Positions 3,101-57,752 of a stretch of 64,000 bases of DNA are shown piece by piece. Position 1 is the first letter of the stretch. The number at the start of each line of letters is the position of its first letter. The position numbers and the translations under genes are program-made. The stretch comes from Neolewinella persica DSM 23188 (GTDB taxonomy: Bacteria; Bacteroidota; Bacteroidia; Chitinophagales; Saprospiraceae): NCBI RefSeq assembly GCF_000373105.1, contig NZ_KB890447.1, forward strand, positions 123,409 through 187,408, in the 5' to 3' direction. Below the pieces are notes generated by a model that made no database searches, was not told the origin of the DNA, and saw only the letters and a program-made list of their open reading frames with translations.

Positions 3101-6100
3101 CACGGTTGGGTGCGCTGCGGTCGGCATAATAGAATTCGTAGGTTTTGGCCGGCGCAAGGATGACTTTGCCTAACCCAACGGGCAAATTATTGAATTGCAG
3201 CCGCGAAACCGGCTCCATCGGTAGGATTCTGGGGAGCTGACTTGCTTGGGAAATGTAGCGCGGTTGCAGTTTTTGCTTCGGGAATTGATAAGCATATTGC
3301 GGAAGTCCTGGAGCCCGCGGTCCACCGCCCGCGGAACGATTTTGAAAATTCTCTACTGTTTCTTTCTTCAACGGGTACAACCGGTCCCGCTCCTTGCTGA
3401 CCCGGTAAGTTACCCTCGGCTCGAACCGGAAATCAACACTGTCCCCTTCGGGAAACCAAAAACGTAAAAGGTTATTGTCAGAGGCTAGTCCCAGGGGTGC
3501 CCAACCGGAATTACTTACCAGATTAGTGGATTGGATGATATCCCTCCAACTTGCTTGAAAATGAAGGGCACCGCTCGTACGCATGTGCGACAGCGCAAAC
3601 ACCCGCTCATAAATCCGGTCGATTTCTTCTTTGGTGGGTTCCTTTATTTCCCGTCGCGTCCAGCCCGCCGAAACCCATCGTACGGCATCGAAGCTGAGCA
3701 CCAGCTGGCGACAACTCTCAAAGTAAAGGCGCTTTTTGTAAACGTATCCATCAATTCTGAGGCTTATACTGTGGTAGCCGCTGTCGACCGGAATGCTGTA
3801 GGGTGTGGCGATGTTGGGGTGCCACCAGTACACCAATCGATCGTCGACGTAAACGGTCCGGATGGTGACTGGCTTATGGTGTCGGATGATGAAGGGCGAG
3901 AAATGCGCGTGTTGTACGCCCGCGGGTAGCAGGGTGTCGAGGTCCCGCTGGAAGGTGAATTCCGCATTGGGATATCGCAGGCGGTAGGCCAGGGCGGTAT
4001 CGAGGCCATAGTCTTCCACCAGCCAGCGGGGTGGGGTGTCGTTGCGCTTCAACTGGAAGGCTTCTCGTTGGTAGTCTTGCCGTTGGCGACGGCGTTTGGC
4101 GCGCCTATTGTAGGTCGGTGTGGTCACCGGCGTCTTATCGAAACGGGCGTTGAAGGTGCCGGCGGTGAGGCGCACGCCGGACGCGGGGCGGCCCCGTTGA
4201 TCGGTTGCCGTCAGGGCAATGCGGACGGTCTCGCCGGGCGTCACCTTGGCCGGCTGGGTGAGCTGAAGGTCAAGTACGTTTTTGTGCTCGGTCAGCAGGT
4301 CATAGCGTGGGGTGGTGAGGTGGCTGCGTTCGTGCCGCCACTCGCCACCGGCGAGGTAGGTGTAGTGGAGTTCCAGGGTGGTGCCGGGGGCGAAGCCGGA
4401 ACGGATAAATACGGTGCTGTCCTGGTTTCCGGTCGCCAGGGTGCGTTGTTCGGCGTGGAGCGTCCAGCGGAGGGGCTGGGCGTGCGGGTTGGGGAATCGC
4501 AGGAGCAGGGTGTCGCGCGACCAGTAGGCGGGGTTTCCGGTGACTGGTGTCAGGGCTGCCAAAGATTCGGAGGTGCTTTGCCCGCCGTAGAGTAGGCGAT
4601 AAGTGGTTAGGCTATGGTCGATGGGCAGGGTGAGGGGCAGCGTTATTTCCTGCGCCGAGGTGTCCTTTTGGGGGGTGATGGTTTGCAAGATAGCTTTTTT
4701 GGGCGCGGCCGCAGGTGCAAGGAACGCTTGCAGGCTGTCTCCCCGAACCTCCAGCTTGGGGATCAGGGGGTAACGCCGGTCTACTATAAAAGCATTTAAA
4801 GCTTCTTTGTATTCTCCTGAGGGACCGGTCAGCTGCGTCTGAACCCGGATTTTTACCGAATGCCCCCTTGGGAAAAGACTGTCGGGCAGGATGATCCGCC
4901 GGTCCTTGCGGTTGTCGGTGGGTTCGGTGTACGTGTAGAGGGTATCGGGTAAAACGAGGGTGTTCGTATCCTGGCTGGCCACGAAACGTTCCAGCAGGAC
5001 GGTGATTTTTACCTCACCGTTGGGGAGGGGCAGGCCATTGATGTCTTCGGTCTTCACGTCGAGCCAGGCGGAGCCTGGCAGGCGGGCGTCGTCAGTGGCG
5101 GCGGTAGTGAGGGCGTACTCTGCCAACTCGTAATCCTGGAGTTTGAAGCGTATGGTGGGGGAAATATCGCGCCACCGTACGCCCGGCAGGTCGAAGCTGA
5201 CCGTATACTCCTGGTCCAGCGGCCAATCGGCCGGGATGGCCATAACGTGGAGGTACCGCCCCTTCTCGTTGCCGCCCACCCGAGCCCGGTAGCGTTTGCT
5301 TGCGCCACCGCCGTAGGTTTGGATCAGCATATTCACCGAGTCGGGACCCACCGGGCGGCCCTTCGGAAAGGCCAGATAAGCGCTTATCCGCAGCGTATCC
5401 TCCGGACGGTACTTCGGTTGGCTGGTGGAGACGTAACCGGTGATCGGATTAGGGCGAGTGATCCGGTGAATGGTATTTTTCAGGGGGTAGTTCCTTGGCC
5501 AGTGCCAGTACTGCCGGCCGATGCCGTCTTTAAAAACGTGGTAGATGCTTTGACCGTAATAATAGGGCGTTTGCAAGGTCCTGAACGGCTCGATGCCGCG
5601 CAGGTGCCGAACGTCGTTGGAGAACCTGCTTCGTTCGATGTCCTCCCCAACGCGGTAGAACAGGGTATCACCACCAACTATGATTTTTAAGTCGTCGATC
5701 CGCCAGTCGCGCCGCCGGTAGGCCTGGTGTTTTTTGACATAGCAGACCTTTTTGCCGTCCGCCATAACGTTGGCATCCGCCCGTGGCTGACCAGCGGGGT
5801 CGTGAATGCGGAGCTGGAATTTTCCGTCCGCCGCGTTGATCTCTATGTCGTATTGATAGGTGTGAAAATAACTGTAGGTCAGCTGTTCGCCCACCAGCAA
5901 GGCTTCGAGGTAATGGCCTGGCGGTAGTTTGGCTTTCTCCGTGCCGGCAGGGTAGGGCGCGCCCAGCCCCGTTTGATCATCAAGGCTGATTTCCCAATTG
6001 CTGAGCTGCTCCACGGTGGCTGCCGGGATGGCGTAGATTCGTTCGATAGCTTTGGGGAAGGCGAAGGACTGGCCGCTAAGGAACGAGGCTGACGAAAGCA

Positions 6101-6128
6101 GGAGGGCAAGGAGTAATAGGTGCCGCAT
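192..6128 (-). CDS. Alpha-2-macroglobulin family protein with embedded CarboxypepD_reg and TonB-plug module
   Basis: A 1978-residue secreted protein with an N-terminal signal peptide. Residues about 200-1080 hold macroglobulin-type beta domains. Residues about 1083-1160 are a carboxypeptidase-D regulatory-like domain. Residues about 1165-1310 are a SusC-like TonB plug, with VVVGYGS, YYIDGV, LYIVDGVP and GARGANGVVLI. The A2M core resumes near 1327, and the thioester motif C1540-T-E-Q1543 lies in PYACTEQ, followed by a helical thioester domain. Bacterial macroglobulins trap proteases in the envelope. Here the plug module lies where the protease-sensitive bait region is expected. No beta-barrel follows the plug, so this is not a transporter. 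The repeat at 4701-4722 encodes an APAAAP stretch at residues about 470-476. Family assignment is firm; the role of the plug is unknown. Confidence 0.9.
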   Translation of the reverse strand: MRHLLLLALLLSSASFLSGQSFAFPKAIERIYAIPAATVEQLSNWEISLDDQTGLGAPYPAGTEKAKLPPGHYLEALLVGEQLTYSYFHTYQYDIEINAADGKFQLRIHDPAGQPRADANVMADGKKVCYVKKHQAYRRRDWRIDDLKIIVGGDTLFYRVGEDIERSRFSNDVRHLRGIEPFRTLQTPYYYGQSIYHVFKDGIGRQYWHWPRNYPLKNTIHRITRPNPITGYVSTSQPKYRPEDTLRISAYLAFPKGRPVGPDSVNMLIQTYGGGASKRYRARVGGNEKGRYLHVMAIPADWPLDQEYTVSFDLPGVRWRDISPTIRFKLQDYELAEYALTTAATDDARLPGSAWLDVKTEDINGLPLPNGEVKITVLLERFVASQDTNTLVLPDTLYTYTEPTDNRKDRRIILPDSLFPRGHSVKIRVQTQLTGPSGEYKEALNAFIVDRRYPLIPKLEVRGDSLQAFLAPAAAPKKAILQTITPQKDTSAQEITLPLTLPIDHSLTTYRLLYGGQSTSESLAALTPVTGNPAYWSRDTLLLRFPNPHAQPLRWTLHAEQRTLATGNQDSTVFIRSGFAPGTTLELHYTYLAGGEWRHERSHLTTPRYDLLTEHKNVLDLQLTQPAKVTPGETVRIALTATDQRGRPASGVRLTAGTFNARFDKTPVTTPTYNRRAKRRRQRQDYQREAFQLKRNDTPPRWLVEDYGLDTALAYRLRYPNAEFTFQRDLDTLLPAGVQHAHFSPFIIRHHKPVTIRTVYVDDRLVYWWHPNIATPYSIPVDSGYHSISLRIDGYVYKKRLYFESCRQLVLSFDAVRWVSAGWTRREIKEPTKEEIDRIYERVFALSHMRTSGALHFQASWRDIIQSTNLVSNSGWAPLGLASDNNLLRFWFPEGDSVDFRFEPRVTYRVSKERDRLYPLKKETVENFQNRSAGGGPRAPGLPQYAYQFPKQKLQPRYISQASQLPRILPMEPVSRLQFNNLPVGLGKVILAPAKTYEFYYADRSAPNRVYPGAYDVLYHFRNDSVFHQLVELGEDSLTLLAFHRADVKHFNNFDRFEGYSLNKPPKAPKPEVVYVERVFAGDRMSGMVTDEDEMPLIGVSILIEGTTVGTVSDFDGRFSLEVPVGDFKLVFSYTGYATQKLAVTDTQFPVSPFKITMESSVEMLQEVVVVGYGSVLKRSLSGSVSTISSEEISNLPRRDIGFLAGRVAGVTISDEGAAINVRGSRSDGVDYYIDGVRVGTPGAATNIRIRGISSLGLSNPLYIVDGVPVENIDDLTEAQIATVNVLKDASATAIYGARGANGVVLIATKGAASGTVGGNLPPAAIRESFSDYAAFVPELQTDRQGKAVFDITFPDDITAWNTFAVGQDRKRRIGFTLAQTNAFLPLQAQLYLPRFLVEGDRAEAATLAINREAEPQNVRLTFSGGKEAARTQDAALVSSIEERHPIETAVGADSMTYQFTVQAMDGKGISDGERRSVPVYPKGTETVSGELLMLTDKTTRLPDAFIRPERGPVTLRLPGNRLQQLLNDLNHIVDYPYACTEQTASRLIGLLQLKAVREAEGKVFGQAGDVPKMILRLEKLRRPDGGFGWWGSSPSSTPWISLHVYRALVMAEKAGQTVTDLTSIRRYLLGRVPELPARDQLQILLALAEEGNPPTDEEMIRIDTFSAPNDYELLAVTRLHQLRGDTVDVQRLLDSSTTHAALGRYWGERGFFFYRQPLDGRLACNLLAQRILSDAGHKQEAAETINYLLGQSAARNRPGNVPLLGTNTLESARLLAELLPALLAEDDALAPPVVTLQSDGVATKVTTFPYETEVASEAVPGLRLQRAGSGPLPVALYQRWFETEPTVKDDGFQITSQLIDARDRPLDQLQRGTTSYLEVTVTSTSDADYVLIEIPIPAGCSYADRNERQGPFAVHREYRRDRVAIFCDRLPAGSYTYKVALAPRFSGVYTLNPARAEMQYLAVVNGNGGLTQVKIGE
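4701..4722 (-). repeat. Dispersed 19-bp repeat inside the macroglobulin gene
   Basis: An exact consensus copy, read C-rich on the coding (minus) strand. It lies in frame about a quarter of the way into the gene and encodes APAAAP. Confidence 0.75.
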
Positions 6129-6177
6129 AGGGTGATGTTGTGGGTAGGTAGATGCTTAACTTTGGAGACTTACACAA

Positions 6178-6256
6178 AGGGCGAGTGGGTTGTGGCTCGA
6201 GTTTTTACCCTTTGCGGTTAGGAGATTTCTCGGGGCACAGCCCGCTCGCCCTTATC
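6178..6256. repeat. REPIN upstream of RAYT 1
   Basis: Two inverted REP halves: AGGGCGAGTGGGTTGTGGCT at about 6179-6198 and CTCGGGGCACAGCCCGCTCG at about 6231-6250. About 30 bases separate them. The same pair recurs twice just downstream of the transposase gene, the usual arrangement of a RAYT with its cognate REP sequences. Confidence 0.75.
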
Positions 6257-6264
6257 TTAGCAAG

Positions 6265-7127: not shown

Positions 7128-7160
7128 TGTACAAACCAGGTTTTTCAAAGTCCACAGCCC

Positions 7161-7179
7161 TGCACCTGCGACCGCGCCC
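7161..7179 (+). repeat. Dispersed 19-bp repeat before the EEP gene
   Basis: TGCACCTGCGACCGCGCCC, one mismatch to consensus, C-rich in the direction of the downstream gene and 44 bases upstream of its ATG. Confidence 0.7.
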
Positions 7180-7223
7180 AACACAACTAACATTTGCCCC
7201 TTCTCCCCGGTTACAACAATAAA

Positions 7224-9017: not shown

Positions 9018-11321
9018 CTACTCCACCACTAACTCATCTAAATATATCCGCGCCTTATCCCCCGCCCGATGATGTCCCTCCGGGATGCTGTCGAAGGCTT
9101 TCAGCCGTACTTGTATGGCCGTTACTTCAGTAGGGGAAAAGTTGATGGTGCTGCGGACTTTGTTTCGGCCCTGAACAGCGGCTTCTTCCGCTTGGTCCAA
9201 TTTGGCTAAGGGGAGAAATATCCTTTTCCCCCCGGATGGTGCTCCGAAAACCTGTACGACCTCCGGCGGATAGATCGCTGAAATGGTGTAGCGCAAGGTG
9301 GAGAAGCTAAGGGAACTAATGGTGGTTGGTTCGTCAAAAGTAACGGTGAGGGTGAGGTCGTTGTCAGTTTTATACCAATTTGTATCCACCGGCGTGAGCC
9401 GGCTATACTGGAGGTCGGTAAGCTTGGGAACTGATTGGCCGTTGGTGTCCTTCACTGGCCTGTTCGCTGCCAAATGGACTGGTAAATCCATGAATACTTC
9501 ATACCCGACAGCTACTCCGTTAATAAAGGATCTGGCGACAACTTTTCCAAGAGGGCCTATGGAGAAAGGACCGGTGTATTTAGTAGATTTCATACTTGGT
9601 ACATTACCGTCAAGCGTATACCGGACGTCGAGCCCATTGGCCTCTGTAGTAAAACTGACCTCAATACCGCCGTCCTTGCGAACGTGATGCGGCCAGGGGC
9701 TAAACGCACTCACCGCATAGCGCACGCCCTGGGCATCCAACCGCTGGTAAGCGTGCAAAAGCCGCTTAGTAAAGCCGTCCCAGTCCTTCCGCTCCGGCTG
9801 CGTCCAGGCATTCTCAGCGATGGCGAACAGGCGGGGATAAACCATGTAGGTGAACTTACTCCAATCACTGATCGACTCGGTCCACAGGTTAGCCTGAATA
9901 CCTTTGATCAGGGAACCTTCTTGTGGCGTCAGGTCATCCGGAACGATCTGGTAATTGTAGGCATCGGAGAGCAGGGAGCGGGAGTAGCCGAGGTTGGGCT
10001 CAAAGTCGTCATGGCCCTGTTTAAGGTCGAGGTAACAATACTTGCTGGGCGTCATAATGACTTCATGCCCGGCCCGGGCTGAAGCCAGCCCCCCTTCTTC
10101 CCCGCGCCACGACATGACCACGGCGTTGGGCGCCAGGCCACCCTCCAGGATCTCGTCCCAGCCAATCATTTTCTTATCCCGGGCGTTGATGATTTCTTCC
10201 ATTCGGTGGATGAAATAACTCTGTAATTCCCCCTCGTTTTTCAACCCTTCTGCACGCATTTTTCGCTGGGCGTCTGGGTCGATTTGCCATTGTTCTTTAT
10301 TACACTCATCTCCGCCGATGTGGACGTAGTCGAAGGGAAAGAGGTCCATCACTTCATTGAGCATCGTTTCGGCAAATTGGTAGGTCTCGTCCTTGCCGGG
10401 ATTGATGGTGTTGTATCGGAATACGCCGCCGGTAGCTACCGCAGGAAGTGCCTTTACACCGCCGATCTCCGGGTAGGCGGCGACAGCGGCCTGGGCGTGG
10501 CCCGGCATGTCGATTTCGGGGATGACCTCAATGTTTCGTTGCTTGGCGTAGTCTACCACTTCGCGGATCTGCTCCTGGGTGTAGAAGCCGCCGTAGGTAG
10601 GTTCTTCACCGGGCTGAAGGGGCGCCCGGCCCCACCAGTCGGAGATTTGTTCGTCGGTGTTAATGCGGTCGGCGCGCCAGGCGCCGATTTCGGTTAGTTT
10701 GGGGTAGGCTTTTATCTCTATACGCCAGCCCTGGTCGTCGGTCAGGTGCCAGTGGAAACGGTTGAGTTTTTGGCTGGCCATGATGTCCAGTACGTCTTTC
10801 ACCTGGTCGACGGTAAAGAAGTGGCGGGAGACATCGAGCATAAAACCCCGCCAGCCGAAGGCGGGGGCATCTTTGATGTGGACGGCGGGAATGGCAAGGT
10901 GCGTAGTACCGGGTGCTGGGTTGCTGGGCAACAGCTGCCGCAAGGTTTGGCTGGCGTAGAAGAAACCGGCTTTGTCGGCGGCCTTTATTTCGATCTCTTC
11001 CGGGCTTACGTCAAGGACATAGCCTTCTGCGGACAGGCTGCTGTCGGTGATCAAACGGAAATTAGAGGTGCCGTTTACCATCAAAGTCAGTGGTTGACCT
11101 CCAGCGTCTTCAAAAGCATTCAGAAAGGGTAATAATTGCCCGCCTTGTTCCGTGCTTTCCAGGCTAATGATCAGGTCTTTGTCGAGGACAAAGTAGCCTT
11201 CCTTATCCGTTTGTTCCTGTGGTTGGGGAAGGAGTAGTGCCTTTCCCGTTTGGATGTTTTGGGGGGCGGGGCCGCAGGTGCAAAGGAGAAGTGTAAGGAG
11301 CAGGGGGAGTAGTCTGAGCAT
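9018..11321 (-). CDS. Beta-N-acetylhexosaminidase lipoprotein, GH20
   Basis: A 767-residue enzyme that removes terminal N-acetylhexosamine from chitin or glycan fragments. The lipoprotein signal peptide ends LLLCTCGPAP. The GH20b domain (residues about 30-150) is followed by the catalytic barrel. The HIGGDE motif near residues 334-339 supplies the Asp-Glu pair for substrate-assisted catalysis; earlier landmarks are GWRGFMLDVSRHF and HWHLTDDQGWR. The C-terminus (about 540-620) has the Fn3-associated/chitobiase-like domain and a final beta-rich segment. The coding strand of the dispersed repeat at 11264-11282 forms the lipobox region itself. It probably acts in the periplasm or on the outer surface with the other glycan-active enzymes of the window. 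Confidence 0.93.
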   Translation of the reverse strand: MLRLLPLLLTLLLCTCGPAPQNIQTGKALLLPQPQEQTDKEGYFVLDKDLIISLESTEQGGQLLPFLNAFEDAGGQPLTLMVNGTSNFRLITDSSLSAEGYVLDVSPEEIEIKAADKAGFFYASQTLRQLLPSNPAPGTTHLAIPAVHIKDAPAFGWRGFMLDVSRHFFTVDQVKDVLDIMASQKLNRFHWHLTDDQGWRIEIKAYPKLTEIGAWRADRINTDEQISDWWGRAPLQPGEEPTYGGFYTQEQIREVVDYAKQRNIEVIPEIDMPGHAQAAVAAYPEIGGVKALPAVATGGVFRYNTINPGKDETYQFAETMLNEVMDLFPFDYVHIGGDECNKEQWQIDPDAQRKMRAEGLKNEGELQSYFIHRMEEIINARDKKMIGWDEILEGGLAPNAVVMSWRGEEGGLASARAGHEVIMTPSKYCYLDLKQGHDDFEPNLGYSRSLLSDAYNYQIVPDDLTPQEGSLIKGIQANLWTESISDWSKFTYMVYPRLFAIAENAWTQPERKDWDGFTKRLLHAYQRLDAQGVRYAVSAFSPWPHHVRKDGGIEVSFTTEANGLDVRYTLDGNVPSMKSTKYTGPFSIGPLGKVVARSFINGVAVGYEVFMDLPVHLAANRPVKDTNGQSVPKLTDLQYSRLTPVDTNWYKTDNDLTLTVTFDEPTTISSLSFSTLRYTISAIYPPEVVQVFGAPSGGKRIFLPLAKLDQAEEAAVQGRNKVRSTINFSPTEVTAIQVRLKAFDSIPEGHHRAGDKARIYLDELVVE
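11264..11282 (-). repeat. Dispersed 19-bp repeat forming the GH20 lipobox
   Basis: Read on the minus strand this is TGCACCTGCGGCCCCGCCC, which encodes the Cys-Thr-Cys-Gly-Pro-Ala lipobox and mature N-terminus. One mismatch to consensus. Confidence 0.75.
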
Positions 11322-12753: not shown

Positions 12754-12832
12754 GAAAACGAGGGGATGAATATTCACGCTAAGCCAGACGACCCTTGCTT
12801 CGTGAACTTCCCCTGCACCTGCGGCCCCGCCC
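12754..12832. repeat. Degenerate palindromic element plus 19-bp repeat
   Basis: About 12754-12804 resembles 8717-8774 (ACGAGGGGATGAATATTCAC, then CTAAGCCAGACGACCC). Bases 12814-12832 are a near-consensus copy of the dispersed repeat. Together they separate the lipoprotein gene from the SEC-C gene. Confidence 0.55.
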
Positions 12833-14993: not shown

Positions 14994-15023
14994 GGGTAGT
15001 GAATTTTGAAGGGAATGATTTTT

Positions 15024-15041
15024 GGCGCGGACGCTGGTGCA
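15024..15041 (-). repeat. Dispersed 19-bp repeat before the PAAR gene
   Basis: On the minus strand this reads TGCACCAGCGTCCGCGCC, 30 bases upstream of the PAAR start and C-rich in the gene direction. Confidence 0.65.
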
Positions 15042-17743: not shown

Positions 17744-17810
17744 GATGGTAATAATTAAGGGTTAGTTGAAAAACTCGGTTTGGTTCTCTGCTCTTTGGTC
17801 CTTCACTTTT

Positions 17811-17827
17811 CACCTGCGTCCGCGCCC
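17811..17827 (+). repeat. Dispersed 19-bp repeat between sheath and tube genes
   Basis: CACCTGCGTCCGCGCCC on the plus strand. In gene direction (minus) it reads G-rich, just after the sheath stop codon. Confidence 0.65.
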
Positions 17828-22289: not shown

Positions 22290-25200
22290 ATGCACCAGCG
22301 TCCGCGCCCCCAGAACCTAATACTCGTACTGCTATGTACGCTTTTTATCACCCACCTCTCCGCCCAGGAAGCCCGGCTGCTCCGCCAGCCCAACCTCGGC
22401 ACGGACCGTATCGCCTTCACCTACGGCTCCGACGTATGGACCGCAGAGATGGACGGAAAAGACGTCCGTCGTATCACCAGTACAGCGGCCGTAGAAAGTG
22501 ACCCGCACTTCTCGCCCGATGGCAAATGGCTGGCCTTCAGCTCTAATCGCGACGGCGGCACCTCGGTCTACATCGTAGACGCCATGGGCGGCATGCCCAC
22601 CCGCCTGACCTGGCACCCCAGCGGTGGTGCCGTACGCGGCTGGACGCCCGACGGAAAATCGGTCCTTTTCGCCAGCTCCCGCAACAGTGCGCCGGTGGGC
22701 TTTAATCGCCTGTGGACGATCCCCGCCACCGGCGGGCCAGCCGTGCAACTCACCCACCAGTGGGGTTTTGACGGCAGCTACAGCCCCGACGGTAAAAGCA
22801 TTGCCCTCGACAAAATGAGCCGCTGGGACACCGAATGGCGCGCCTACCGCGGCGGCCAGAACACGCCCCTGATCGTGCTTGATCTGGCCACCAACGACGA
22901 GGTGCTGATCCCCAACGAAAAAACGACGGACATACAGCCTAACTGGCTGAAAGGGGAAGTGTTTTTCCTCTCCGATCGGGACTGGACGATGAACGTCTGG
23001 GCCTATAATGTGAAGACCAGGGCCCTCCGCCAGGTTACCAAATTCAAGAAGACTGACGTGAAATGGCTCGACGCAAATGGCAGCCAACTGATCGTGGAGC
23101 AAGACGGTTACCTGCACACGGTAGACCCCGAAACGGGCAAAGCAAATAAGCTGAACATTAACATCGTGGCCGATTTCCCCTGGGCCGCTACGCAGTGGGA
23201 AGACGTGAGTAATAATGCGGGCTCCATCTCCCTTTCCCCGACGGGTAAACGTGCCGTGATGGAAGCGCGCGGAGACATCTTCACCGTACCCGTCGACAAG
23301 GGCGATTCCCGCAACATCACCCGGAGTTCGGGCACCGCCGACCGCGCACCGCTCTGGTCGCCGAAGGGCGATCAACTGGCCTGGTTCTCCGACGCCGACG
23401 GTAAGGGCTACCGCCTGCACCTGTCCAACCAGGACGGCCGGGGTGAAACAAAAACCCACAGCATCGGCGTCTCCAAAATGGCCTGGGACCCGGCCTGGAG
23501 CCCGGACGGAAAACACATCGCTTTTGTGGACGACGACGTGCGCATCCGCGTGATCACCCTGGCGGATGGAACGATAAAAACCGTGGATTCGGGCGGGACT
23601 AACCTGGATCGTAGCCGGACGGATCCCGAATGGAGTCCGGACAGCAAATACCTGGCCTACGTAAAATCGGCGGAGAATAACTTCCGTCAGATCCTGACCT
23701 GGAACAGCGAAACGGGGGACATTGAAGCGCTGACGAATCGCTTCGCCGACGCCTTCAGCCCCGCCTGGGACCGGGACAAAAAGCACCTCTACTTCCTCGC
23801 TAGTACCGACCTGGCCCTCGGCTCCAGTTGGGCAAACACCAGCGCCATGCAGGCCGACCCGAGCTACGCCGCCTACGTGATCGTGCTGCGCAACGACGAG
23901 GATTCGCCCTTCCTGCCCGAAAGCGATGAGGAGGAAGTGAAGGAAGAAAAGGAAGATAAAGCGGAAGGCGACAAAGAAGAAGGGGACAAGGAAGATAAAG
24001 AAGAAGAGGGCGCGGCCGCAGGTGCCATGGATAAGGACGAGGGAGCAGGCAAGGACGACGCTAAAGACAAGGATAAAGATGAGGGGGTACGCATCGACTT
24101 TGACCGGATTGAGCGACGGACAATTGCGCTCCCCGTCGACAACGGTAACTACTACGCCACCGCTGCCGGCCCGGCCGGCACCCTCTTCCTGGCCCGCCAA
24201 CGGAGTGATAGCCCGGGTGGCCAACTCATGAAATTCACGCTAAAAGACCGTGAGGCCAAGGAATTCGCCGGCGGCCTCCGGCAGTTCTCCGTCTCTGCCG
24301 ACGGGAAGATGATTCTGGTGCAAACGATGGGCGGCTGGTCCGTCGCCAAAACCGGCGGTCCCTCCGCCAAAGGTGGAGAGTCATTAAAACCCAGCCTCCG
24401 CATGAAACTCGACCGGCCGGCCGAGTGGAAACAGATGTTTGAAGAAGCCTGGCGCTACGAACGCGATTACTTCTACGACCCGGGCATGCACGGTCGCGAC
24501 TGGAACGTGGTGTACGAACGCTATGCACCACTGGTGCCACACGTCCGCCACCGCGCAGAGTTGAACTACATTTTGGATCAGATGAACGGCGAACTTTCCG
24601 TGGGCCACAGCTTCGTTCGCGGCGGGGATTACCCGGATGTCGAAAGCTCCCGCGTCGGCCTCCTTGGCGCAGACCTGGTGGCCGAAAACGGTCGTTGGCG
24701 CATCAGCCGCATCTACACGACGGAGAGCTGGAACCCCCGCTTGAGTAGTCCGCTGGACCGCCCCGGTCTGAATGTTAAAGACGGTACCTACCTGGTCGGT
24801 GTCAACGGCCGCGAACTGACCGCCGCCGACAACCCCTACGAATTCCTGGACGGCACCCGAGGCCGGCAGACTACGCTCCACCTCAACGACAGTCCGAGCT
24901 TCGAAGGACAGCGCGAAGAAACGGTGGTCCCCATCTCTAACGAGGGCGCGCTGCGCCAGCGCGCGTGGGTGGAAGACAACCGCCGTAAGGTAGATGAACT
25001 CTCCGGCGGCAAACTCGCCTACATCTGGGTGCCGAATACCGGCGGTTCCGGCTTTGTCAATTTCAACCGCTACTTCTTCGCCCAGCAGGATAAGCTTGGT
25101 GCCGTCATCGACGAGCGCTTCAACGGCGGTGGTAGCCTCGACGATTACATGGTCGACCTGATGACGCGGTCGCTCCGCGCCGCCCTCACCAACGAGGTCC

Positions 25201-26524: not shown

Positions 26525-26574
26525 TGCACCTGCGTCCGCGCCCATCTTATAATAGAGGCGCGGACGCAGGTGCA
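26525..26574. terminator. Inverted pair of 19-bp repeats forming a long hairpin
   Basis: A copy at 26525-26543 (TGCACCTGCGTCCGCGCCC) faces its reverse complement at 26557-26574, with a 13-base loop. The perfect stem of about 18 pairs lies 45 bases after the exonuclease stop. It is the only back-to-back pair of this repeat in the window. It could terminate transcription, but no T-tract follows. Confidence 0.6.
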
Positions 26575-34143: not shown

Positions 34144-34154
34144 CTACTCCCCCC

Positions 34155-34172
34155 GCACCCGCGCCCCCGCCC
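34155..34172 (+). repeat. Dispersed 19-bp repeat upstream of hsdM
   Basis: GCACCCGCGCCCCCGCCC, a diverged C-rich copy in an extremely G-poor leader 50 bases before the hsdM start. Confidence 0.5.
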
Positions 34173-34221: not shown

Positions 34222-35718
34222 ATGATCACCGGCCAAATAAAATCCCAGGTAGACGCCATCTGGAACCTCTTCGCCAACGGCGGGCTCACCAACGCCCTCA
34301 CCGTCATCGAGCAGTTCACCTACCTGCTGTTTTTGCGGCGGCTGGACGAGCGGCAGATCAACGAAGAAAAGAAAGCCAACCTGCTCGGTCAGCCGCTGAA
34401 GAACCCCATCTACGGCCCCGGCGAAGCAGACCTGCGCTGGCACAACTTCCTCAACTTCGGCCCCGAGCAGAAACTTGAGATCTTCACCCGCGGCATCCAG
34501 GTCAGCAACGACCCGCCCGAATTCCTCAACGCCTTCGATAAAATGAAGACGGTGGGCAAAGCCGGCGGCGTGTTCACCGAACACATGAAGGGGGCCACCT
34601 TCATGGTCAACAAAGCCCGGCTGCTCGATTCGCTGGTGATGAACATCAACGACATCACGATGAGCGACCGCGACACCAAGGGCGACCTCTACGAATACAT
34701 GCTGAGCAAGATCGCCAGCGCCGGCCGCAACGGACAGTTCCGCACCCCCCGCCACATCATCCGCCTGATGGTGGACCTGACGCGGCCCACCAAAGACGAC
34801 GTCATCTGCGACCCCAGCTGTGGCACCGCCGGCTTCCTGGTCAGCGTCGGAGAGTACTTCCACGAGAACCACCCGGACCTATTCCTGGACAAGAACTTCC
34901 GCCAACGCTACAACTCGGAGATGTTCCACGGCGTGGAGATCGACCCCAGCATGCTGCGCATCGGCGCGATGAACCTCCAGCTCCACGGCATCGAAGACCC
35001 CCAGCTGCTGGAACGCGACGCCCTGAGCGAGCAAAATGCCGACCAGCGCGATAAATACACCCTGCTGCTCGCCAACCCGCCCTTCAAAGGCAGCCTCGAT
35101 TACGACAGCGTGGAGGCCAGCCTACTGCAAACGGCCAAGACCAAGAAAACCGAACTCCTCTTCCTCTCCCTGATGCTGCGGATGCTGCAGACCGGTGGCC
35201 GCGCGGCCGTGATCGTGCCCGACGGCGTCCTGTTCGGTAGCTCGAAGGCCCACAAAGCCATCCGCTCTGAGATCATCGAGAAGCACAAACTCACCGCCGT
35301 CATTTCCATGCCCGGCGGCGTGTTCAAACCCTACGCCGGGGTGAGCACCGCCGTCCTGTTCTTTACCAAAACCGGCACCGGCGGCACCGACGACGTCTGG
35401 TTCTACGACATGCAGGCCGACGGCTTCAGCCTCGACGACAAGCGCCAAGCCACCGAAGCCAATGACCTGCCCGATATCGTCACCCGTTTTTGGGCGCGGA
35501 CGCAGGAGCAGGGGAGGGCTCGAACGGAGCAAAGTTTCCTGGTCCCCAAAGCTGAAATCGTCGAAAACGACTACGACCTGAGCATCAACCGCTACAAAGA
35601 AATCATCTACGAAGCCGTGGAATACGACCCGCCCGCCGCCATCATCCAGCGGCTGAAGGATATGGAGCAGGAACGGTTTGAGTTGTTGGAGGAGTTGGAG
35701 AAAATTATGGGGGAATGA
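34222..35718 (+). CDS. hsdM: Type I restriction-modification DNA methyltransferase subunit
   Basis: A 498-residue N6-adenine methyltransferase. The N-terminal HsdM helical domain (about 1-130) is followed by AdoMet motif I, DPSCGTAGF, from residue 197, and the catalytic NPPF at residues 285-288. It methylates adenine in the half-sites read by HsdS and is required in the restriction complex. The repeat at 35492-35510 lies in frame and encodes ARTQEQ at about residue 424, after the catalytic core. Its stop overlaps the hsdS start (ATGA). The last 20 codons contain no C at third positions, while the first 25 are C-rich. Confidence 0.95.
   Translation: MITGQIKSQVDAIWNLFANGGLTNALTVIEQFTYLLFLRRLDERQINEEKKANLLGQPLKNPIYGPGEADLRWHNFLNFGPEQKLEIFTRGIQVSNDPPEFLNAFDKMKTVGKAGGVFTEHMKGATFMVNKARLLDSLVMNINDITMSDRDTKGDLYEYMLSKIASAGRNGQFRTPRHIIRLMVDLTRPTKDDVICDPSCGTAGFLVSVGEYFHENHPDLFLDKNFRQRYNSEMFHGVEIDPSMLRIGAMNLQLHGIEDPQLLERDALSEQNADQRDKYTLLLANPPFKGSLDYDSVEASLLQTAKTKKTELLFLSLMLRMLQTGGRAAVIVPDGVLFGSSKAHKAIRSEIIEKHKLTAVISMPGGVFKPYAGVSTAVLFFTKTGTGGTDDVWFYDMQADGFSLDDKRQATEANDLPDIVTRFWARTQEQGRARTEQSFLVPKAEIVENDYDLSINRYKEIIYEAVEYDPPAAIIQRLKDMEQERFELLEELEKIMGE
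35492..35510 (+). repeat. Dispersed 19-bp repeat inside hsdM
   Basis: GGGCGCGGACGCAGGAGCA, G-rich reading, in the last sixth of hsdM, in a third reading frame relative to the copies in mutS and hsdR. Confidence 0.7.
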
Positions 35719-41220: not shown

Positions 41221-44200
41221 TTGTCCAACTTCACCTTCCTAACCCCCGAGTGGCCCACCCTTTATAATAAAGCTCGCCGCTCCGAAACCCGCGCTCGTAC
41301 CGAGCCGGTTTCGTCATTGACCTACGCCCGGCTGGCCATGGAGGAAGCGGTTTACCAGCTATACGACTTGGAGTACCTGGACACGCCATATAATACCGCG
41401 CTTAATAACCTGATGACGGAGCCGGAATTTGTCCGGCTGGTGCCAACTACTCTGCTGAAGGGCCTGCACATCGTCCGGAAAAACGGCAACCAGGCTGCGC
41501 ACTATGGCAATAGAGTGAGTGATCAGGAGGCGATTACGAGTTTGCACTACCTGTTTTCTTTCCTGAAATGGTTTGCGGGCAAATACAGTGAGGCGGAGCC
41601 GGAGTTGCCGGGAGGATTTGACGGCGGGTTCATTCCCCTGGAAGAGGGAGATGCATCGGCAAAGGTCGCCCAGGCAACAGCGCGCGCCCAATTAGAGGAA
41701 GCCATTGCGGCGGGACTGAAACTAGAGGCGGATTTTAAGAAATTGCAGGAAGAGCGGGATGCACTGGCGGCGGAAGCCCAACACAGTAAGGAAGCCCGTG
41801 CCCGGCTGCAGGCACAGATACTGGCCCAGCAAGCAGAGGTGGCGGAGCGCAAGGCAAGCCGCACGGTGGAAGTCGCCTCCGAATTCAGCGAAGCCGAAAC
41901 CCGCAAGCACCTCATCGACGCCAGTTTGGCGGAGGCTGGCTGGCACTTGCTGCGCAATGGACGGGAGCTTGAATTTGAAGTGACGGGGATGCCGGTGTCC
42001 CGGCAAAGCAAGAACGGGCGGGGCTTTGTGGATTACGTTTTGTGGGGAGACGACGGCCAACCGCTCGCGCTGGTAGAGGCAAAACGCACCAGTGCCGACC
42101 CGGAAAAAGGACGCCACCAGGCTTGGCTTTACGCTAATGCCCTGGAGCAAACTTACGGCCGGCGGCCCGTTATTTTCTACACGAACGGCTACGATATTTA
42201 TCTGCTCGACGATGCGTTTTACAGCGCTCCGCGTCAGGTGTCGGGCTTCCTGACCAAGGACACGCTGGTCTGGCGTATCCAGCAACGAGGATTGCGGCAA
42301 GACATCCGGAAGGTTAGCCCTAAAGCGGACATTGCCGGCAGGAGTTACCAGCAGTTAGCGATTCAACGGGTGACGGAAGCCCTGCTCGCGAAACCTTCCC
42401 CTGCACCTGCGGCCGCGCCTACTGCTGAAGCTCCCGTGCTCAATGACGGGCCGACCATAAATACCTATGCGAAACTACGGGGCAGTCGCCGTACCGCGCT
42501 GCTAGTGATGGCGACTGGTTCGGGCAAAACCCGGACAGCGGCGGCCCTGACCGACATATTGCTGAACCATGGCTGGGCACGCCGTATTCTTTTCCTGGCA
42601 GATCGCAATGCGCTGGTCACCCAGGCAAAGGACAGTTTCAACGAACACCTTCCAGAGGTTTCGGCCATCAACCTGACGACCGAAAAGGAGAACGATAAGA
42701 CGAGGCTGGTCTTTAGTACCTACCCCACGATGTTGAACCGGATCGAGGCTTCTTATCGGGGCGCGGCCGCAGGTGCAGGGGAGGGTAAAGGCACCGGGCC
42801 CTACTTCGGCATTGGTCACTTCGATCTCATCATAGTTGACGAGGCCCACCGGAGTGTCTATAATCGATACCAGGCTATCTTCGATTACTTTGATGCCATG
42901 GTACTAGGTCTTACCGCTACCCCTCGCAGCGCCATCGACCGCAATACCTACGAACATTTCGGCTGCGCTGATGACGACCCTACCTTCGAGTATCCACTTG
43001 ATGAGGCCGTTGCGGTCGGTCACCTGGTCAGCTACCAAAACATTGACGTCTCCACCAAATTCATCCGTGAAGGCATCAAGTACGCCGAACTAAACGAACG
43101 GGAGAAAGCGGCTTACGAAGAAGAGTTTCGGGACAACGTCAGCGGCGAACTGCCCGAGGAAATTGCGGCCTCCTCGATGAATAAATGGCTGTTTAACAAA
43201 GACACGGTCAACAAGGTGCTTGACACCCTGATGGCACAGGGCCTGAAGATCGAAGGCGGCGATAAAATCGGGCGAACCATCATTTTTGCCGTGAATAAAA
43301 AGCACGCTGATTTCATTACAGAATGCTTCATTGCTCGCTACCCGGAACTGCCCTCGGGCGCTATTGCCAAGATCTACAACGATATATCCCACGCTGATAC
43401 GCTGATCAAGAGCTTTTGCAATAAGTTCGAGGAGAAATTACCCCAGATCGCTATTTCTGTGGACATGATGGACACCGGGATTGATGCCCCACGGGTACTG
43501 AACCTGGTATTCTTTAAGGTGGTCCGGTCCTTCGCCAAATTCTGGCAGATGATCGGCCGGGGCACCCGTACCTGTCCGGATGTATTCGGGCCAGAGCAAC
43601 CGAAAGAGCAATTTCTGATCTTCGACGTTTGTCAGAATTTCGAGTTTTTTGCGGTGAACCAAAATGGCAGGGACGCAGGTAGCCAGTTGCCGCTCTCCGC
43701 TAAGATTTTCGTTGCCCGCTTACAACTAAGCCAGCTGCTGTTTCAAACCGGCGATGTTGAAAATGCCGGCTACGGTCGCCGCCTGCTGGATTTTCTGCAC
43801 GGGCAATTGTCGGAACTACGTACGGAGGAGCAACAACGTCGTTTCCGGGTCCGTAATGCCCGTCGTTACCTGGATGCCTACGCCGACCGTAAAAAGTGGG
43901 ACCAGCTGAACAACGACCACATTGGAGAATTGAACCGGGAGATTGCCCCATTGGTACTTCCTTCGGCGGACGAAGAGTCTGCCCGCCGGTTCGATTTATT
44001 GATGCTGCAACTACAAATTTTGGGCTTGCAGGGCGGCGGGTCAAAACAGGAACAACTACAGAGTAAATTGATCCAGATCGCGACCGGCCTGAGCAAGAAA
44101 TTCGGCGTGCCGGAAGTATTGGCCAAAGCTGATTTGATTCATGAAATGCAAAACCCGGAATTTTATCCGGACAAAACCTCGGACGATCTGGATCACATCC

Positions 44201-47284: not shown

Positions 47285-47785
47285 ATGGCCAGTGCGGACC
47301 ATCACCCACACGCCCACATGCTAACCCTACCAAAACCCAGCAGCCACCAGCTGCCCGGAGCACTAATCCTATGCCTACTAACCCTGCTCCTATTCACCTC
47401 CCTCCGCACCTGCGCCCCCGCCCAAATCACCCAACTCCCGGCGGTGAAAACAACGGTCCCCATCCCGAAGCCTCCACGGGGAAACATCGACCCGGCCCTC
47501 CCCGTCCTGGCCCTCGCGCAAAGCCCGCCCCACGTACAGCGCGTGGTGCAGCACCTGCGGACCATCAAAAGCTGGAATCCCCTCGCTGGTTTCCGGGGCG
47601 GCCGTACCTTTCGCAACCTCGAAGGAGTGCTTCCAAAAAGAGCGGTGTACCGCGAATACGACGTCTTGCCCAACCTGGCGGGCGTCCCCCGAGGCGCCGA
47701 ACGCATCGTCGTCGACGCCACCCGCCGCAACTTTTACTATACCTCCGATCATTACACTACATTCACCCAAATCCTCCTCCCATGA
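47285..47785 (+). CDS. Secreted barnase-family ribonuclease
   Basis: A 166-residue protein, or 155 from the ATG at 47318. A hydrophobic segment (LILCLLTLLLFTSLRTC) ends in a lipobox-like Cys whose codons come from the dispersed repeat. The C-terminal 75 residues match barnase: GGRTFRNLEGVLP, YREYDV with Glu 124, GAERIVV with Arg 140, and SDHYTTF with His 156, the expected base, arginine and acid. The enzyme would cut RNA after guanine. Export as a lipoprotein points to a contact- or release-type toxin. It overlaps the barstar gene by ATGA. Confidence 0.88.
   Translation: MASADHHPHAHMLTLPKPSSHQLPGALILCLLTLLLFTSLRTCAPAQITQLPAVKTTVPIPKPPRGNIDPALPVLALAQSPPHVQRVVQHLRTIKSWNPLAGFRGGRTFRNLEGVLPKRAVYREYDVLPNLAGVPRGAERIVVDATRRNFYYTSDHYTTFTQILLP
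47406..47423 (+). repeat. Dispersed 19-bp repeat at the barnase lipobox
   Basis: GCACCTGCGCCCCCGCCC encodes RTCAPA, providing the Cys of the predicted lipobox. Confidence 0.6.
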
Positions 47786-49980: not shown

Positions 49981-50219
49981 CTACGAGGAAGTACATGCCG
50001 CCTCATTGCTCCAATAACTTTCCCCTGCACCTGCGGCCTCGCCTGAAAATGCTTCGGAAGCTGCTTGGGGATCTGGTGGCAGTACCGACCATTTGGTGCC
50101 GTCAGCAGAACGTTTTACGGAGAAAATGTCATGGTTTTCGGTGGCGGATACAAACCACGATAATTTTACCGCTTTATGCCAGGTCACCTGAGCCGTAAAG
50201 CTTTCCCAGGCCCGGCAGC
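49981..50219 (-). pseudogene. Remnant of a T9SS-exported protein
   Basis: On the minus strand an open stretch reads ESFTAQVTWHKAVKLSWFVS, then ATENHDIFSVKRSADGTKWS. This is the beta-sandwich segment that precedes sorting domains in many T9SS proteins. It is cut off by repeat-derived sequence (EAAGAGES), so the copy at 50026-50043 lies inside the remnant. No start or sorting domain is left. Confidence 0.55.
50026..50043 (+). repeat. Dispersed 19-bp repeat before the AraC gene
   Basis: TGCACCTGCGGCCTCGCC, C-rich towards the AraC gene. Confidence 0.65.
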
Positions 50220-53320: not shown

Positions 53321-53413
53321 GTGCTAAGGGACGCCGTATAAATAACTTACTGGTTTGAAATACATTGGAAGCACCACTTTCGCCATTCAGTTATCTTCGA
53401 TGAGCTACCCGGT

Positions 53414-54625: not shown

Positions 54626-55031
54626 AGAGGTTTTATTAGGTGAATAAGACGATCTTTCAAAGTGGATGTGTGCTAAAACAAGCATGGCTGGTTTACCACA
54701 CGACATCCAGGTATTTATCAAGAAATGATCAATCGCAGACCCAAAGTGAGTCCTTTTCAGGTAGGTGTATATTCTCTCAAAAGAGCCGCTAAGGTAGGAA
54801 AACGTTTTAATTCGGGACCGTGAAGACCCCATTGCGAAACCAATGCATTGAACCTTTGCTCCAACAACCTCCCCGGCACCCGCGCCCCCGCCCAAAAGAA
54901 GTCAGCCGGTCAAACACGCACCTGACAGCGCACCAGACGCCGTACAGGGAAAGCGAAGAGTCCGAACGACAGCGACTCTCCGGCTCCCTGACTTTGCGAC
55001 TCTCTGACTCCTTGACTATCTTCGCCCACCT
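54626..55031. other. Intergenic stretch between divergent genes, with a 19-bp repeat
   Basis: It holds the promoters of the divergent hypothetical gene and mutS, though neither consensus is clear. Bases 54876-54893 (GCACCCGCGCCCCCGCCC) are a diverged copy of the dispersed repeat, C-rich towards mutS. Bases 54964-55020 contain GACTCT/CTGACT short tandem units. Confidence 0.5.
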
Positions 55032-57752
55032 ATGGCAAAGGCAAAGAAAAAAGGCTCCAAAAAGGTCACCCCCCTAATGCAGCAGTACAACCAGGTGAAG
55101 GCCAAGCACCCGGACTCGCTGCTCCTCTTTCGCGTGGGGGACTTCTACGAAACCTTCGGTGAAGATGCCGTCAAAGCCGCCCAGACCCTGGGCATCGTCC
55201 AGACCAGCCGGAACAACGGTGGGTCCGACGTAGAGCTGGCTGGCTTCCCCTACCACAGCCTCGATACCTACCTGCCCCGGCTCGTAAAAGCCGGCTACCG
55301 CGTCGCCATTTGTGAGCAATTGGAAAAGCCCTCGAAGGAGAAGAAGATCGTCCGCAGAGGTGTCACCGAAATCGTGACGCCCGGCCTGGCCGTCGATGAT
55401 AAATTACTGGAGCACAAGACCAATAATTTCCTTGCCTGTGTCTCCTACGCCGGCGGAAAACAGGACCTCTACGGCCTGAGCTTGCTCGACATCAGCACCG
55501 GCGAGTTCCTCGCCGCCGAGGGCGCCGCCGACTACGTCGATAAGCTGCTGCAAAGCTTCCAACCCAAAGAAGTCCTCATCAATAAGGGCCGGAGCAAAGA
55601 CTTTCTCAAAACTTTCGGCGACCGGTTCTATATGACCACCCGCGACGAGTGGATTTTCACCACCGACTACACCCAGGAAAAACTCCTGCGGCAGTTCAAC
55701 GCCGTTAGCCTCAAAGGCTTCGGTATTGAAAAAATGGAACTGGCCCAAATCGCTGCCGGTGCCATTCTCCACTATCTCGAAACCACCGAGAACAAGAACC
55801 TCCAGCACATCACGCGCATCAACCGGCTGGCCAACGACCGTTACGTTTGGCTCGATCGGTTCACCATCCGCAACCTCGAATTGCTACACTCTCCGCACGA
55901 CAACGGCGTGCCGCTGGTGCAGGTCATGGACCAGACCGTCACCCCAATGGGCGGACGCCTGTTGCGTAAGTGGGTGGTACTGCCGCTCCTCGAAGCCAAG
56001 GCGATCAAAAGTCGGCACACCGTTGTCCGTGCCTTCGTCGAAAACGCCGTTTTGCTGCAGGACCTCGACGAGCACCTCCGCAAAATCGGCGACCTCGAAC
56101 GTCTCATCTCCAAGGTGCCACTGGGCAAAGTAAACCCGCGCGAAATCCGATCGTTGAGTAACGCGCTTTGCGCCCTCGATCCGATCATAGGTCTGTTGGC
56201 AGATACGGGAAACCCCGTACTGTCCGACATTGCCAATCGCCTTGATCCGCTGCCCGACGTCTGCACCGAAATTGACCGCCAGCTGAAGGAATCACCTGCC
56301 GTGAACCTGCATAAAGGCGGTGTCATCGCTGACGGCTTCGATCCGGAACTGGATGAACTGCGCGACATCACCCGCAACGGTAAAAGCCGCCTTGCCGGCA
56401 TCCAGCAACGCGAAGCCGAGCGGACGGGCATCAGCAGCCTCAAGATCGGCTTCAACAACGTTTTCGGCTACTACCTCGAAGTCACCAATAAGTACAAGGA
56501 CCAGGCACCGGAGGATTGGACGCGTAAGCAGACGCTCACCAACGCCGAACGCTACATCACCGAGGAACTAAAGATCCTGGAAGACAAGATCCTTAACGCC
56601 GAAGACAAGATTCTGCAGCGGGAAGAGGAACTCTACGAAGAGCTCGTCGTCTGGCTCCAACAGTACATCGCGCCGGTACAACGCAACGCCGCTTTGATCG
56701 GCCAACTCGATTGCCTGCTCAGCTTCGCCAAGCTCGCCAACCGCAACCGCTACGTGGAACCGGTATTGGACGACAGCAAAGACATCGAGATCGTACAGGG
56801 CCGCCACCCCGTGATCGAAAAGCAACTTGCGGTGGGGGAGCAGTACGTCCCGAACGACGTGCAACTCGACCCCGACGGCCAGCAAATCATCATGATCACC
56901 GGTCCGAACATGAGCGGTAAATCGGCCCTGCTTCGGCAGACTGCCCTGATCTGCCTCATGGCGCAGATGGGCAGTTTCGTGCCGGCGGAGCGGGTTCGCT
57001 TAGGCCTCATCGACCGGGTATTTACTCGCGTCGGTGCCAGCGACAACATCAGCTCTGGCGAGTCGACCTTCATGGTGGAAATGAACGAGACGGCGTCGAT
57101 TATGAACAACATCACGGACCGTTCGCTGATCCTGCTCGACGAGATCGGTCGGGGTACCTCCACCTTCGACGGCATCAGCATCGCCTGGGCCATCGCCGAG
57201 TACCTGCACAGCAACGGCAACACGCGGCCCAAGACCCTGTTTGCCACGCACTACCACGAGCTCAACGAGCTGGGCGACCGGCTGGAGCGCATCAAGAACT
57301 ACAACGTGGCCATCAAGGAGCACGGCAACAAGATCATCTTCCTGCGTAAACTCGTGCCGGGCGGTTCCAACCACAGCTTCGGTATCCACGTCGCGCAGAT
57401 GGCCGGCATGCCCCGGGAGATCGTGCGGCGGGCTACGGATATTCTGGCGCAGCTGGAGAGCCAGCACATCAATACGCAGCAGGAGGGCGGGGCCGCAGGT
57501 GCAGGGGAGAGCTCGTCGGCCGAGACGGCCGGCAGGCCTGGCTCGTCCGCCGAGCGTTCCGGTGCTCCCGCCGTAAAGCCCATAGCTGCTGCAAATTTCA
57601 GCCAACCCGCCCCCCAGCTCTCTATCTTCGAAACGGTGGACCCCACCGCCGGGGCCATCAAAGCCGCCCTCGAACAGGTGAACATCAACAACATGACGCC
57701 GATTGAGTGTATGATGAAGTTGAATGAGATGTTGGGGTTGTTGGAGGAGTAG
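55032..57752 (+). CDS. mutS: DNA mismatch repair protein MutS
   Basis: A 906-residue MutS. The mismatch-binding Phe 38-Tyr-Glu 40 motif lies in VGDFYETFG. The connector, core and clamp domains follow, then the ATPase with Walker A GPNMSGKS at residues 624-631 and Walker B LLDEIGRGTSTFDG near 700, plus the signature ATHYHEL. It recognises mispairs and recruits MutL. Between the ATPase helix and the C-terminal segment, residues about 815-850 form a low-complexity linker (GGAAGAGESS and following) that contains the dispersed repeat. The last 16 codons have no third-position C. Single gene; its start ATG is clear. Confidence 0.97.
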   Translation: MAKAKKKGSKKVTPLMQQYNQVKAKHPDSLLLFRVGDFYETFGEDAVKAAQTLGIVQTSRNNGGSDVELAGFPYHSLDTYLPRLVKAGYRVAICEQLEKPSKEKKIVRRGVTEIVTPGLAVDDKLLEHKTNNFLACVSYAGGKQDLYGLSLLDISTGEFLAAEGAADYVDKLLQSFQPKEVLINKGRSKDFLKTFGDRFYMTTRDEWIFTTDYTQEKLLRQFNAVSLKGFGIEKMELAQIAAGAILHYLETTENKNLQHITRINRLANDRYVWLDRFTIRNLELLHSPHDNGVPLVQVMDQTVTPMGGRLLRKWVVLPLLEAKAIKSRHTVVRAFVENAVLLQDLDEHLRKIGDLERLISKVPLGKVNPREIRSLSNALCALDPIIGLLADTGNPVLSDIANRLDPLPDVCTEIDRQLKESPAVNLHKGGVIADGFDPELDELRDITRNGKSRLAGIQQREAERTGISSLKIGFNNVFGYYLEVTNKYKDQAPEDWTRKQTLTNAERYITEELKILEDKILNAEDKILQREEELYEELVVWLQQYIAPVQRNAALIGQLDCLLSFAKLANRNRYVEPVLDDSKDIEIVQGRHPVIEKQLAVGEQYVPNDVQLDPDGQQIIMITGPNMSGKSALLRQTALICLMAQMGSFVPAERVRLGLIDRVFTRVGASDNISSGESTFMVEMNETASIMNNITDRSLILLDEIGRGTSTFDGISIAWAIAEYLHSNGNTRPKTLFATHYHELNELGDRLERIKNYNVAIKEHGNKIIFLRKLVPGGSNHSFGIHVAQMAGMPREIVRRATDILAQLESQHINTQQEGGAAGAGESSSAETAGRPGSSAERSGAPAVKPIAAANFSQPAPQLSIFETVDPTAGAIKAALEQVNINNMTPIECMMKLNEMLGLLEE
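57485..57503 (+). repeat. Dispersed 19-bp repeat inside mutS
   Basis: GGGCGGGGCCGCAGGTGCA, G-rich orientation near the 3' end of the gene, encoding GGAAGA in the C-terminal linker. Confidence 0.75.

Follow-up and report, generated by a model that had tools for sequence, protein, structure and literature searches.

A dispersed 19-bp word with species dialects in the genus Neolewinella and its likeness to DNA uptake sequences

A 64,000-nucleotide stretch of the Neolewinella persica DSM 23188 assembly (contig NZ_KB890447.1, positions 123,409 to 187,408; the whole stretch is referred to as the window) contains copies of a 19-bp word in both orientations, between genes as well as in frame within conserved genes. 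The repeat belongs to one genus, Neolewinella (Bacteroidota); in HisS, CysS and MtaB its copies arise by substitution in place at orthologous sites, and its preferred letters differ between species. Strong uptake sequence preference is described for two families, Pasteurellaceae and Neisseriaceae, in passages of PMC7811141; the Neolewinella word is considered, with fair but limited confidence, to represent a third, independent, uptake-signal-like system.

Abundance, anatomy and species dialects

Across the whole assembly (7,080,844 bases in 84 contigs) 1,284 sites match the 19-mer with at most two mismatches, 643 on the forward and 641 on the reverse strand; the reversed pattern, used as a control in the same genome, gives 0 sites. 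An initial annotation of the window had described a dispersed word strongly over-represented in both directions, and counts this far above chance bear it out; neither the genome-wide count nor the comparison with shuffled sequence gives any sign of chance-level abundance. The average density is about one site per 4-5.5 kb.

The full motif is bipartite, spans about 44 bp and carries about 39 bits (CCTTGCTCCTT..AACCTTCCC TTGCACCTGCGNCCNCGCCC AAA). In the 464 kb of own sequence sampled for motif and placement work (G+C 0.525), the 19-base core accounts for 30.5 bits, the 25 bases upstream of it for 7.5 bits and the five bases downstream for 1.4 bits; the 20 bases farther upstream hold 0.2 bits. 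Among 128 copies with at most two mismatches when positions 10 and 13 are left free, the upstream part features a second box, TGCTYY, in 65/128 compared with 6/128 in a control window, and 61/66 first matches of this box start 17-23 bases before the core. Copies picked by their left half only (n=109) have a conserved right half, the exceptions being mainly core positions 10, 13 and 18.

Of 59 other genomes scanned, all 20 congeners match the word, with 1 to 1,152 sites each; outside the genus 2/39 genomes match, with 1-2 sites each. An exact 25-base form was found in 18 stretches, from Neolewinella agarilytica, N. lacunae and Lewinella metagenome-assembled genomes. Three congeners poor in main-form matches (G010, G001 and G006) use other spellings. 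That of G010, TTGCTACTTTGNNAGNC, has 926 copies against 3 for its control, and 0-4 in the other 35 genomes; common ancestry of the G010 word and the main word is uncertain. A spacer variant, ACCTGCGCNCCGNCGCC, is the main form in G001 (668 copies) and G006 (470; controls 3 and 3), and stands alongside the main form in the own genome (74) and in other congeners (3-243, with 150 in G002 and 230 in G015); beyond the genus it was counted 23 times in G021 and 0-4 times in the other 14 genomes.

Motif refinement on 27-120 kb per genome found a dialect in each of the 16 genus genomes sampled, at 20-34 bits compared with 13-17 for null motifs, the weakest being those of G020 and G012 (19.9 bits); unrelated AT-rich or local repeats also gave 20-28 bits in samples of G004, G017, G033 and G035. 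The own-type word was absent from the refinement of four outgroup samples (27-60 kb). By inspection of sisters in the MutS tree the dialects agree with phylogeny, as G001/G006, G004/G017 and G008/G011 share word forms; the exception is G013 and G019, which are sisters and differ in word form.

Copies at orthologous sites

HisS and MtaB (18 rows each) align without gaps between species that have the word and species that lack it, and the CysS alignment contains a short indel in G019 and G010 only (2/18 rows); in these three genes the word arises by substitution in place. The initial annotation had proposed that the element was inserted, mobilised or templated, which is contradicted by these alignments, as well as by the even spacing of copies and by a consensus that changes between species; its further claim, that some mechanism must place the word so often, is supported. 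An insertion or mobile element was rejected on the ungapped orthologues, the even spacing and the dialect letters found at orthologous sites.

Eight own-clade genomes and three genomes of the other clade have GANAGA at the MtaB site, and three more have GGNAGA; the residues are instead KLNPQA in G010, KKNPDA in G012, KKNADA in G016 and GVNEEA in G001. Absence of the word from orthologues, which the initial annotation had proposed as a check, held in part within the genus: MtaB orthologues keep the same residues, and G010 is without an own-type word in all four genes compared. In most own-clade genomes the MutS linker retains a word, whether intact or degraded, as the linker sequence around it changes; there is no word in G003, and the linker of the other clade is shorter and without the word. 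In the neighbourhood of mutS the gene itself gave the principal match between genomes, and G002 and G013 each showed one more long match.

When 72 site pairs were compared, counted in both directions so that each pair enters twice, the partner had the word in 52, lacked it without a large gap in 19 and fell in a gap in 1. Of the 19 ungapped word-less partners 11 are from MutS, 3 from HisS and 5 from other sites (two being near-words); the 11 MutS comparisons are uninformative because the linker is length-variable. Informative pairs are few, and therefore the case for substitution rests on HisS, CysS, MtaB and about three further sites.

Where the residue is invariant, codon identity in the word and next to it exceeds that of other sites in MtaB (0.71 vs 0.49), HisS (0.65 vs 0.44) and CysS (0.72 vs 0.50); these comparisons show the word to be under apparent DNA-level constraint within genes. 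The MtaB codons GGC, GCA and GGT within the word are fixed in 8/8 own-clade genomes, and over core position 12 six genomes have GCG, G014 has GCA and G013 has GCT. The GCT of G013 places A at this position; the letter is characteristic of the G013 dialect and is found at 4/4 sites of this genome (HisS, CysS, MtaB and MutS). The MtaB sites of G004 and G017 have TCC at positions 3-5 and C at position 13, like their dialects, the dialect letters at this site including T at core position 3; the HisS site of G019 has C at core position 6, as in the G019 dialect. Among 23 site-genome cases, being those with a match of at least 0.8 to the genome's own dialect, the own dialect ranked first of 13 (ties included) in 12. 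Orthologous sites can, from these letters, carry the dialect letter of their species, though not all of them do.

Placement of copies in the window and beyond

Placement was counted on gene calls from a home-made codon-score caller. The 126 copies with at most three mismatches to the full 19-mer are divided into 63 inside called genes, 61 outside and 2 across an edge, in sequence that is 78% coding; the density outside called genes is 3.5-fold that inside. In nine genomes 210/396 copies are in genes at 81% coding. The main in-gene frames are read as CTxxRAQ (18), APAAAP (16) and GAAAGA (14), with 7, 7 and 1 copies in the other three frames; the word is read in several frames, within linkers or loops of conserved genes, as the initial annotation had it. 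Filtering by tolerance would give such a frame bias. Copies in the CTxxRAQ frame lie within the first 50 residues in 14/18 cases, where they read like a signal peptide, and the word in frame 0 gives several N-terminal signal-peptide-like stretches a CTSVRAQ or CTCGRAQ ending. A signal-peptide motif as the only identity of the word was rejected, since of the 63 in-gene copies just 14 are read in frame 0 inside the N-terminal 50 residues.

The evenness of the spacing was assessed on a single 360-kb stretch with 95 copies, where the coefficient of variation of the spacing is 0.72 compared with 1.03+-0.10 for placements with the same coding split (0/2000 placements as even); with close pairs collapsed the values are 0.54 and 0.91+-0.10 (0/2000). 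Gaps under 300 bp number 14 on this stretch against 7.3 expected, so that close pairs are in excess; such pairs mostly point outward, in the own genome and in relatives. Intergenic copies are most frequent where the flanking genes diverge (21 in 23.8 kb) and least frequent where they converge (6 in 18.9 kb).

In the window 17 sites lie within three mismatches of the 19-mer, compared with none in 100 dinucleotide shuffles; a Markov null expects 0.05 three-mismatch and 0.3 four-mismatch sites, where 3 and 3 were observed. All 16 main sites of the initial annotation were recovered, shifted by 0-10 bases (the largest shift being from 42412 to 42402), and Pfam confirmed the gene families of its six in-gene copies (A2M-type protein, tricorn protease, HsdM, HsdR twice and MutS); the 17th match, at 63267 with 3 mismatches, is doubtful. 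Two of its four weaker copies, at 34154 and 54875, are probably real; the one at 60874 has 5 mismatches and that at 154 has 8. The copies are listed below.

4701..4719, minus strand: core, exact, in frame in alpha-2-macroglobulin-type gene, read APAAAP
7161..7179, plus strand: core, 1 mismatch, intergenic
11264..11282, minus strand: core, 1 mismatch, N-terminal signal-peptide-like stretch LLLCTCGPAP
12814..12832, plus strand: core, 1 mismatch, intergenic
15023..15041, minus strand: core, 3 mismatches, between called genes
17809..17827, plus strand: core, 2 mismatches, between called genes
22291..22309, plus strand: core, 2 mismatches, 5' end of tricorn protease gene, start codon uncertain
24008..24026, minus strand: core, 1 mismatch, in frame in tricorn protease, read GAAAGA
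26525..26574, both strands: inverted core pair (26525 plus, 26556 minus), predicted hairpin
35492..35510, minus strand: core, 2 mismatches, in frame in hsdM, read ARTQEQ
42402..42420, plus strand: core, 1 mismatch, in frame in hsdR, read APAAAP
42759..42777, minus strand: core, exact, in frame in hsdR, read GAAAGA
47405..47423, plus strand: core, 3 mismatches, signal-peptide-like stretch
50026..50044, plus strand: core, 2 mismatches, intergenic
57485..57503, minus strand: core, 1 mismatch, linker after MutS domain V, read GGAAGA
34154..34172, plus strand: weaker copy, 4 mismatches, two at free positions 10 and 13
54875..54893, plus strand: weaker copy, 4 mismatches, two at free positions 10 and 13
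153..185, plus strand: apparent copy interrupted by palindrome CCCGATAGCTATCGGG

The last of these, the site at 154 with 8 mismatches, reads TTGCACCTGC followed by the palindrome CCCGATAGCTATCGGG and GCGCCAC (153-185), and looks like an element copy whose middle is occupied by the palindrome. The 16-bp palindrome is found at window 163-178 and in locus L047 around 13550, and both of its occurrences in the 464 kb fall between two halves of a word. In G019 (loci L061, L065 and L138) 4/6 palindromes were seen by eye to lie between two word halves; a simple script test for a palindrome inside the word flagged 3/35 related palindromes. Possibly the palindrome is a small insert with a preference for the element.

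The exact 19-mer is also found in 9 viral contigs, 7 of which have 2-3 sites at up to 3 mismatches; at least two of these seven are phage-like. Among the IMG/VR contigs L119-L125, those with phage genes (a tape measure gene in L125, terminase and integrase genes in L119) have 2-3 such sites in 6-14 kb; a site spacing of about 3.58 kb is common to L120, L121, L122, L124 and L125, which probably represent one phage.

Candidate explanations and their weight

Chance, composition and insertion fail as explanations of the word, and a genome-wide process must favour each copy, with a preference that can shift. An uptake or recombination signal is favoured because published work explains the uptake words of Haemophilus and Neisseria by uptake-biased recombination; these words are described in passages of PMC7811141, PMC12616744 and PMC3630211 as having a point-mutation origin, avoidance of coding sequence, dialects that follow phylogeny and inverted pairs. 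The traits of DNA uptake sequences (DUS) and uptake signal sequences (USS) found here are abundance, strand balance, point-mutation origin, under-representation in coding sequence, dialects and even coverage. In the proposed mechanism a trans-acting DNA-recognition step would favour DNA carrying the bipartite motif, most likely at uptake, before recombination; fragments from relatives would replace resident sequence, versions closer to the motif being favoured, and copies would be built and kept by point substitution where genes tolerate them, namely in intergenic sequence, Ala/Pro/Gly linkers and signal peptides. As the preference of the recogniser drifts the sites would follow, giving species dialects. 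That the recognition step is DNA uptake is what we infer from this comparison.

The DUS of Neisseriaceae, as described in passages of PMC3630211, are alike in their thousands of copies per genome and in dialects following phylogeny, and the one-base insertion dialect wadDUS and the two dialects in one genome are much like the spacer variant; inverted pairs are likewise shared (passages of PMC12616744). They differ in length, the passages of PMC12616744 giving DUS of up to about 13 nt compared with a 19-bp core and an upstream box here, and in belonging to another phylum; a ComP-type receptor is unlikely in Neolewinella because no full pilus-type ATPase was found. The USS of Pasteurellaceae share a core with a discontinuous weaker part, an origin by point mutation rather than insertion and under-representation in coding sequence (passages of PMC7811141 and PMC12616744), whereas the passages give them a 9-nt core with AT-rich segments downstream, in place of a GC-rich 19-bp core preceded by a pyrimidine-rich arm, and 2,206 sites in H. 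influenzae Rd (PMC7811141), compared with the density reported above. The anatomy of the word matches uptake sequences in the sequence-level traits tested, and differs from them in length, apparent machinery and phylum. The type IV pilus feature of DUS and USS systems was not found in the search, which covered the single family PF00437; for this reason the word is not filed as a DUS or USS. It most likely works like one.

In another Bacteroidota genus, Riemerella, transformation depends on ComEC, DprA, ComF and RecA together with four other proteins; among these are a DUF5689 protein and an outer-membrane protein that has a carboxypeptidase-regulatory-like domain, both encoded in one predicted operon (passages of PMC8459023). 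DUF5689 is present in 15/19 genomes outside Neolewinella. A Riemerella-like gene pair lies side by side in G010 C115 (L275 1673-6601) and G021 C52 (L276 355-5216), with a three-domain DUF5689 protein just downstream of an outer-membrane-type protein of about 930-950 residues; the latter has a carboxypeptidase-regulatory-like domain, as in the Riemerella transformation operon. This surface pair was rejected as the receptor candidate, since DUF5689 is absent from all genus genomes but G010, and the genus either uses another surface receptor or is not competent by the Riemerella route. Riemerella columbina, also of the Bacteroidota, prefers its own DNA; the study sought over-represented k-mers of up to 10 bp, and A-rich ones are among those tabulated (passages of PMC7965970).

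Several points weigh against uptake as the explanation. No receptor was found, and no uptake or transformation has been shown in the genus. ComEC is present in 21/21 genus genomes (the own and 20/20 congeners), and does not discriminate because it is nearly as common outside the genus (16/19). The pilus/type II secretion ATPase family PF00437 gave fragments near the cut-off in 20/21 genus genomes and none in G009, in a pilus-machine search that covered this family and did not extend to pilins and secretin; DUF5689 is missing from 20/21 genus genomes, being present in G010 only, and a search of 15 other genus genomes with the outer-membrane protein of G010 gave short, weak matches only. Compared with DUS and USS as described in passages of the cited papers, the motif is longer. 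The codon test is modest per gene, windows as extreme making up 6/184, 5/157 and 12/171; the own dialect did not rank first in 11/23 site-genome cases, and the G013 dialect sample contains its own MutS, HisS and MtaB sites. Known uptake words are scarce in newly acquired DNA (passages of PMC7811141), as they are in rRNA genes, whereas some copies of the Neolewinella word are present in phage contigs and hsd genes.

Among the alternatives, a chromosome-maintenance or recombination site bound by a nucleoid, segregation or recombination-repair protein, acting without DNA uptake, is considered unlikely; its variants include a Chi-like stop, a loading site or a self-label against nuclease, with copies kept by selection or biased gene conversion. 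Even spacing, substitution origin and DNA-level constraint would follow from such a site too, and the known uptake apparatus was not found in the PF00437 and DUF5689 searches. Chi- and KOPS-like words are strand-biased, whereas the strands are balanced here, at 49/46 on the 360-kb stretch, which is of uniform GC-skew sign; a Chi-like strand-biased site was ruled out by this balance on the one stretch. Known nucleoid sites are far fewer than the copies counted here, and change of the whole set between related species would be hard to achieve through weak selection at about 1,000 sites without drive.

A repeat of the kind seen in REP elements and their clusters (REP/BIME) or in miniature inverted-repeat transposable elements (MITEs), spread by a transposase and leaving solo copies and inverted pairs as end fragments, is highly improbable. 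REP elements have high copy number and inverted pairs; the word shares both, with more than 1,000 copies and, among 49 close pairs (up to 350 bp apart; 1.49 Mb from nine genomes), 32 tail-to-tail, 13 head-to-head and 4 in the same direction, so that 45/49 are inverted. Many of the 23 pairs folded give predicted long hairpins, and copies are found in phage contigs. Against this stand substitution without insertion at HisS, CysS and MtaB, the even spacing, the dialects at orthologous sites, the concentration of mismatches at certain core positions and pair spacers that vary in length and sequence; a homogeneous MITE was rejected because the interiors of the folded pairs differ. REP/BIME elements are intergenic, whereas half of the copies here (63/126) are in genes. 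Rickettsia palindromic elements are inserted sequences of about 100-150 bp that lie in frame in conserved genes; this in-frame presence is common to both, and the word differs in that no insertion was seen at the orthologous sites compared.

A regulatory or transcript element (promoter, terminator or attenuator hairpin) is judged at least as improbable: the bias of intergenic copies towards divergent and away from convergent genes, and the strong predicted folding of some pairs, would fit it, but genes contain half of the copies, which lie there in either orientation and are read in several frames. An artefact of composition or codon usage in GC-rich Ala/Pro/Gly coding sequence, to which the many APAAAP and GAAAGA readings might point, can be dismissed, being refuted by the shuffle and reversed-pattern controls (0 in both) and opposed by the 61/126 copies outside called genes, the information content of the motif and a G+C of 0.525.

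The uptake reading has a more specific and more tentative form, held with somewhat less than even confidence, in which the word would be the first Bacteroidota self-recognition code and, having evolved independently, the third overall: a bipartite word of about 40 bp, far exceeding DUS and USS in length, with a non-type-IV-pilin receptor and many dialects within a single genus, possibly tied to the loss of the outer-membrane and DUF5689 protein pair. This pair would then possibly be an older uptake pair, kept only by the most deviant congener, G010. Among the literature matches listed, as titles and abstract beginnings, there was no report of such a word in Neolewinella or Lewinella. Should the uptake reading fail, the data still show a drive acting on about 1,000 sites. 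If it is true, Neolewinella would provide the third such case, convergent and from a different phylum, in which pili are apparently lacking and the word is much longer. The origin of such codes, the joint change of a recogniser and its roughly one thousand sites, and a possible contribution of dialects to species borders could then be tested; for this the genus offers many dialects in about 20 genomes, together with cultured strains (N. agarilytica DSM 24740 and N. lacunae KCTC 42187).

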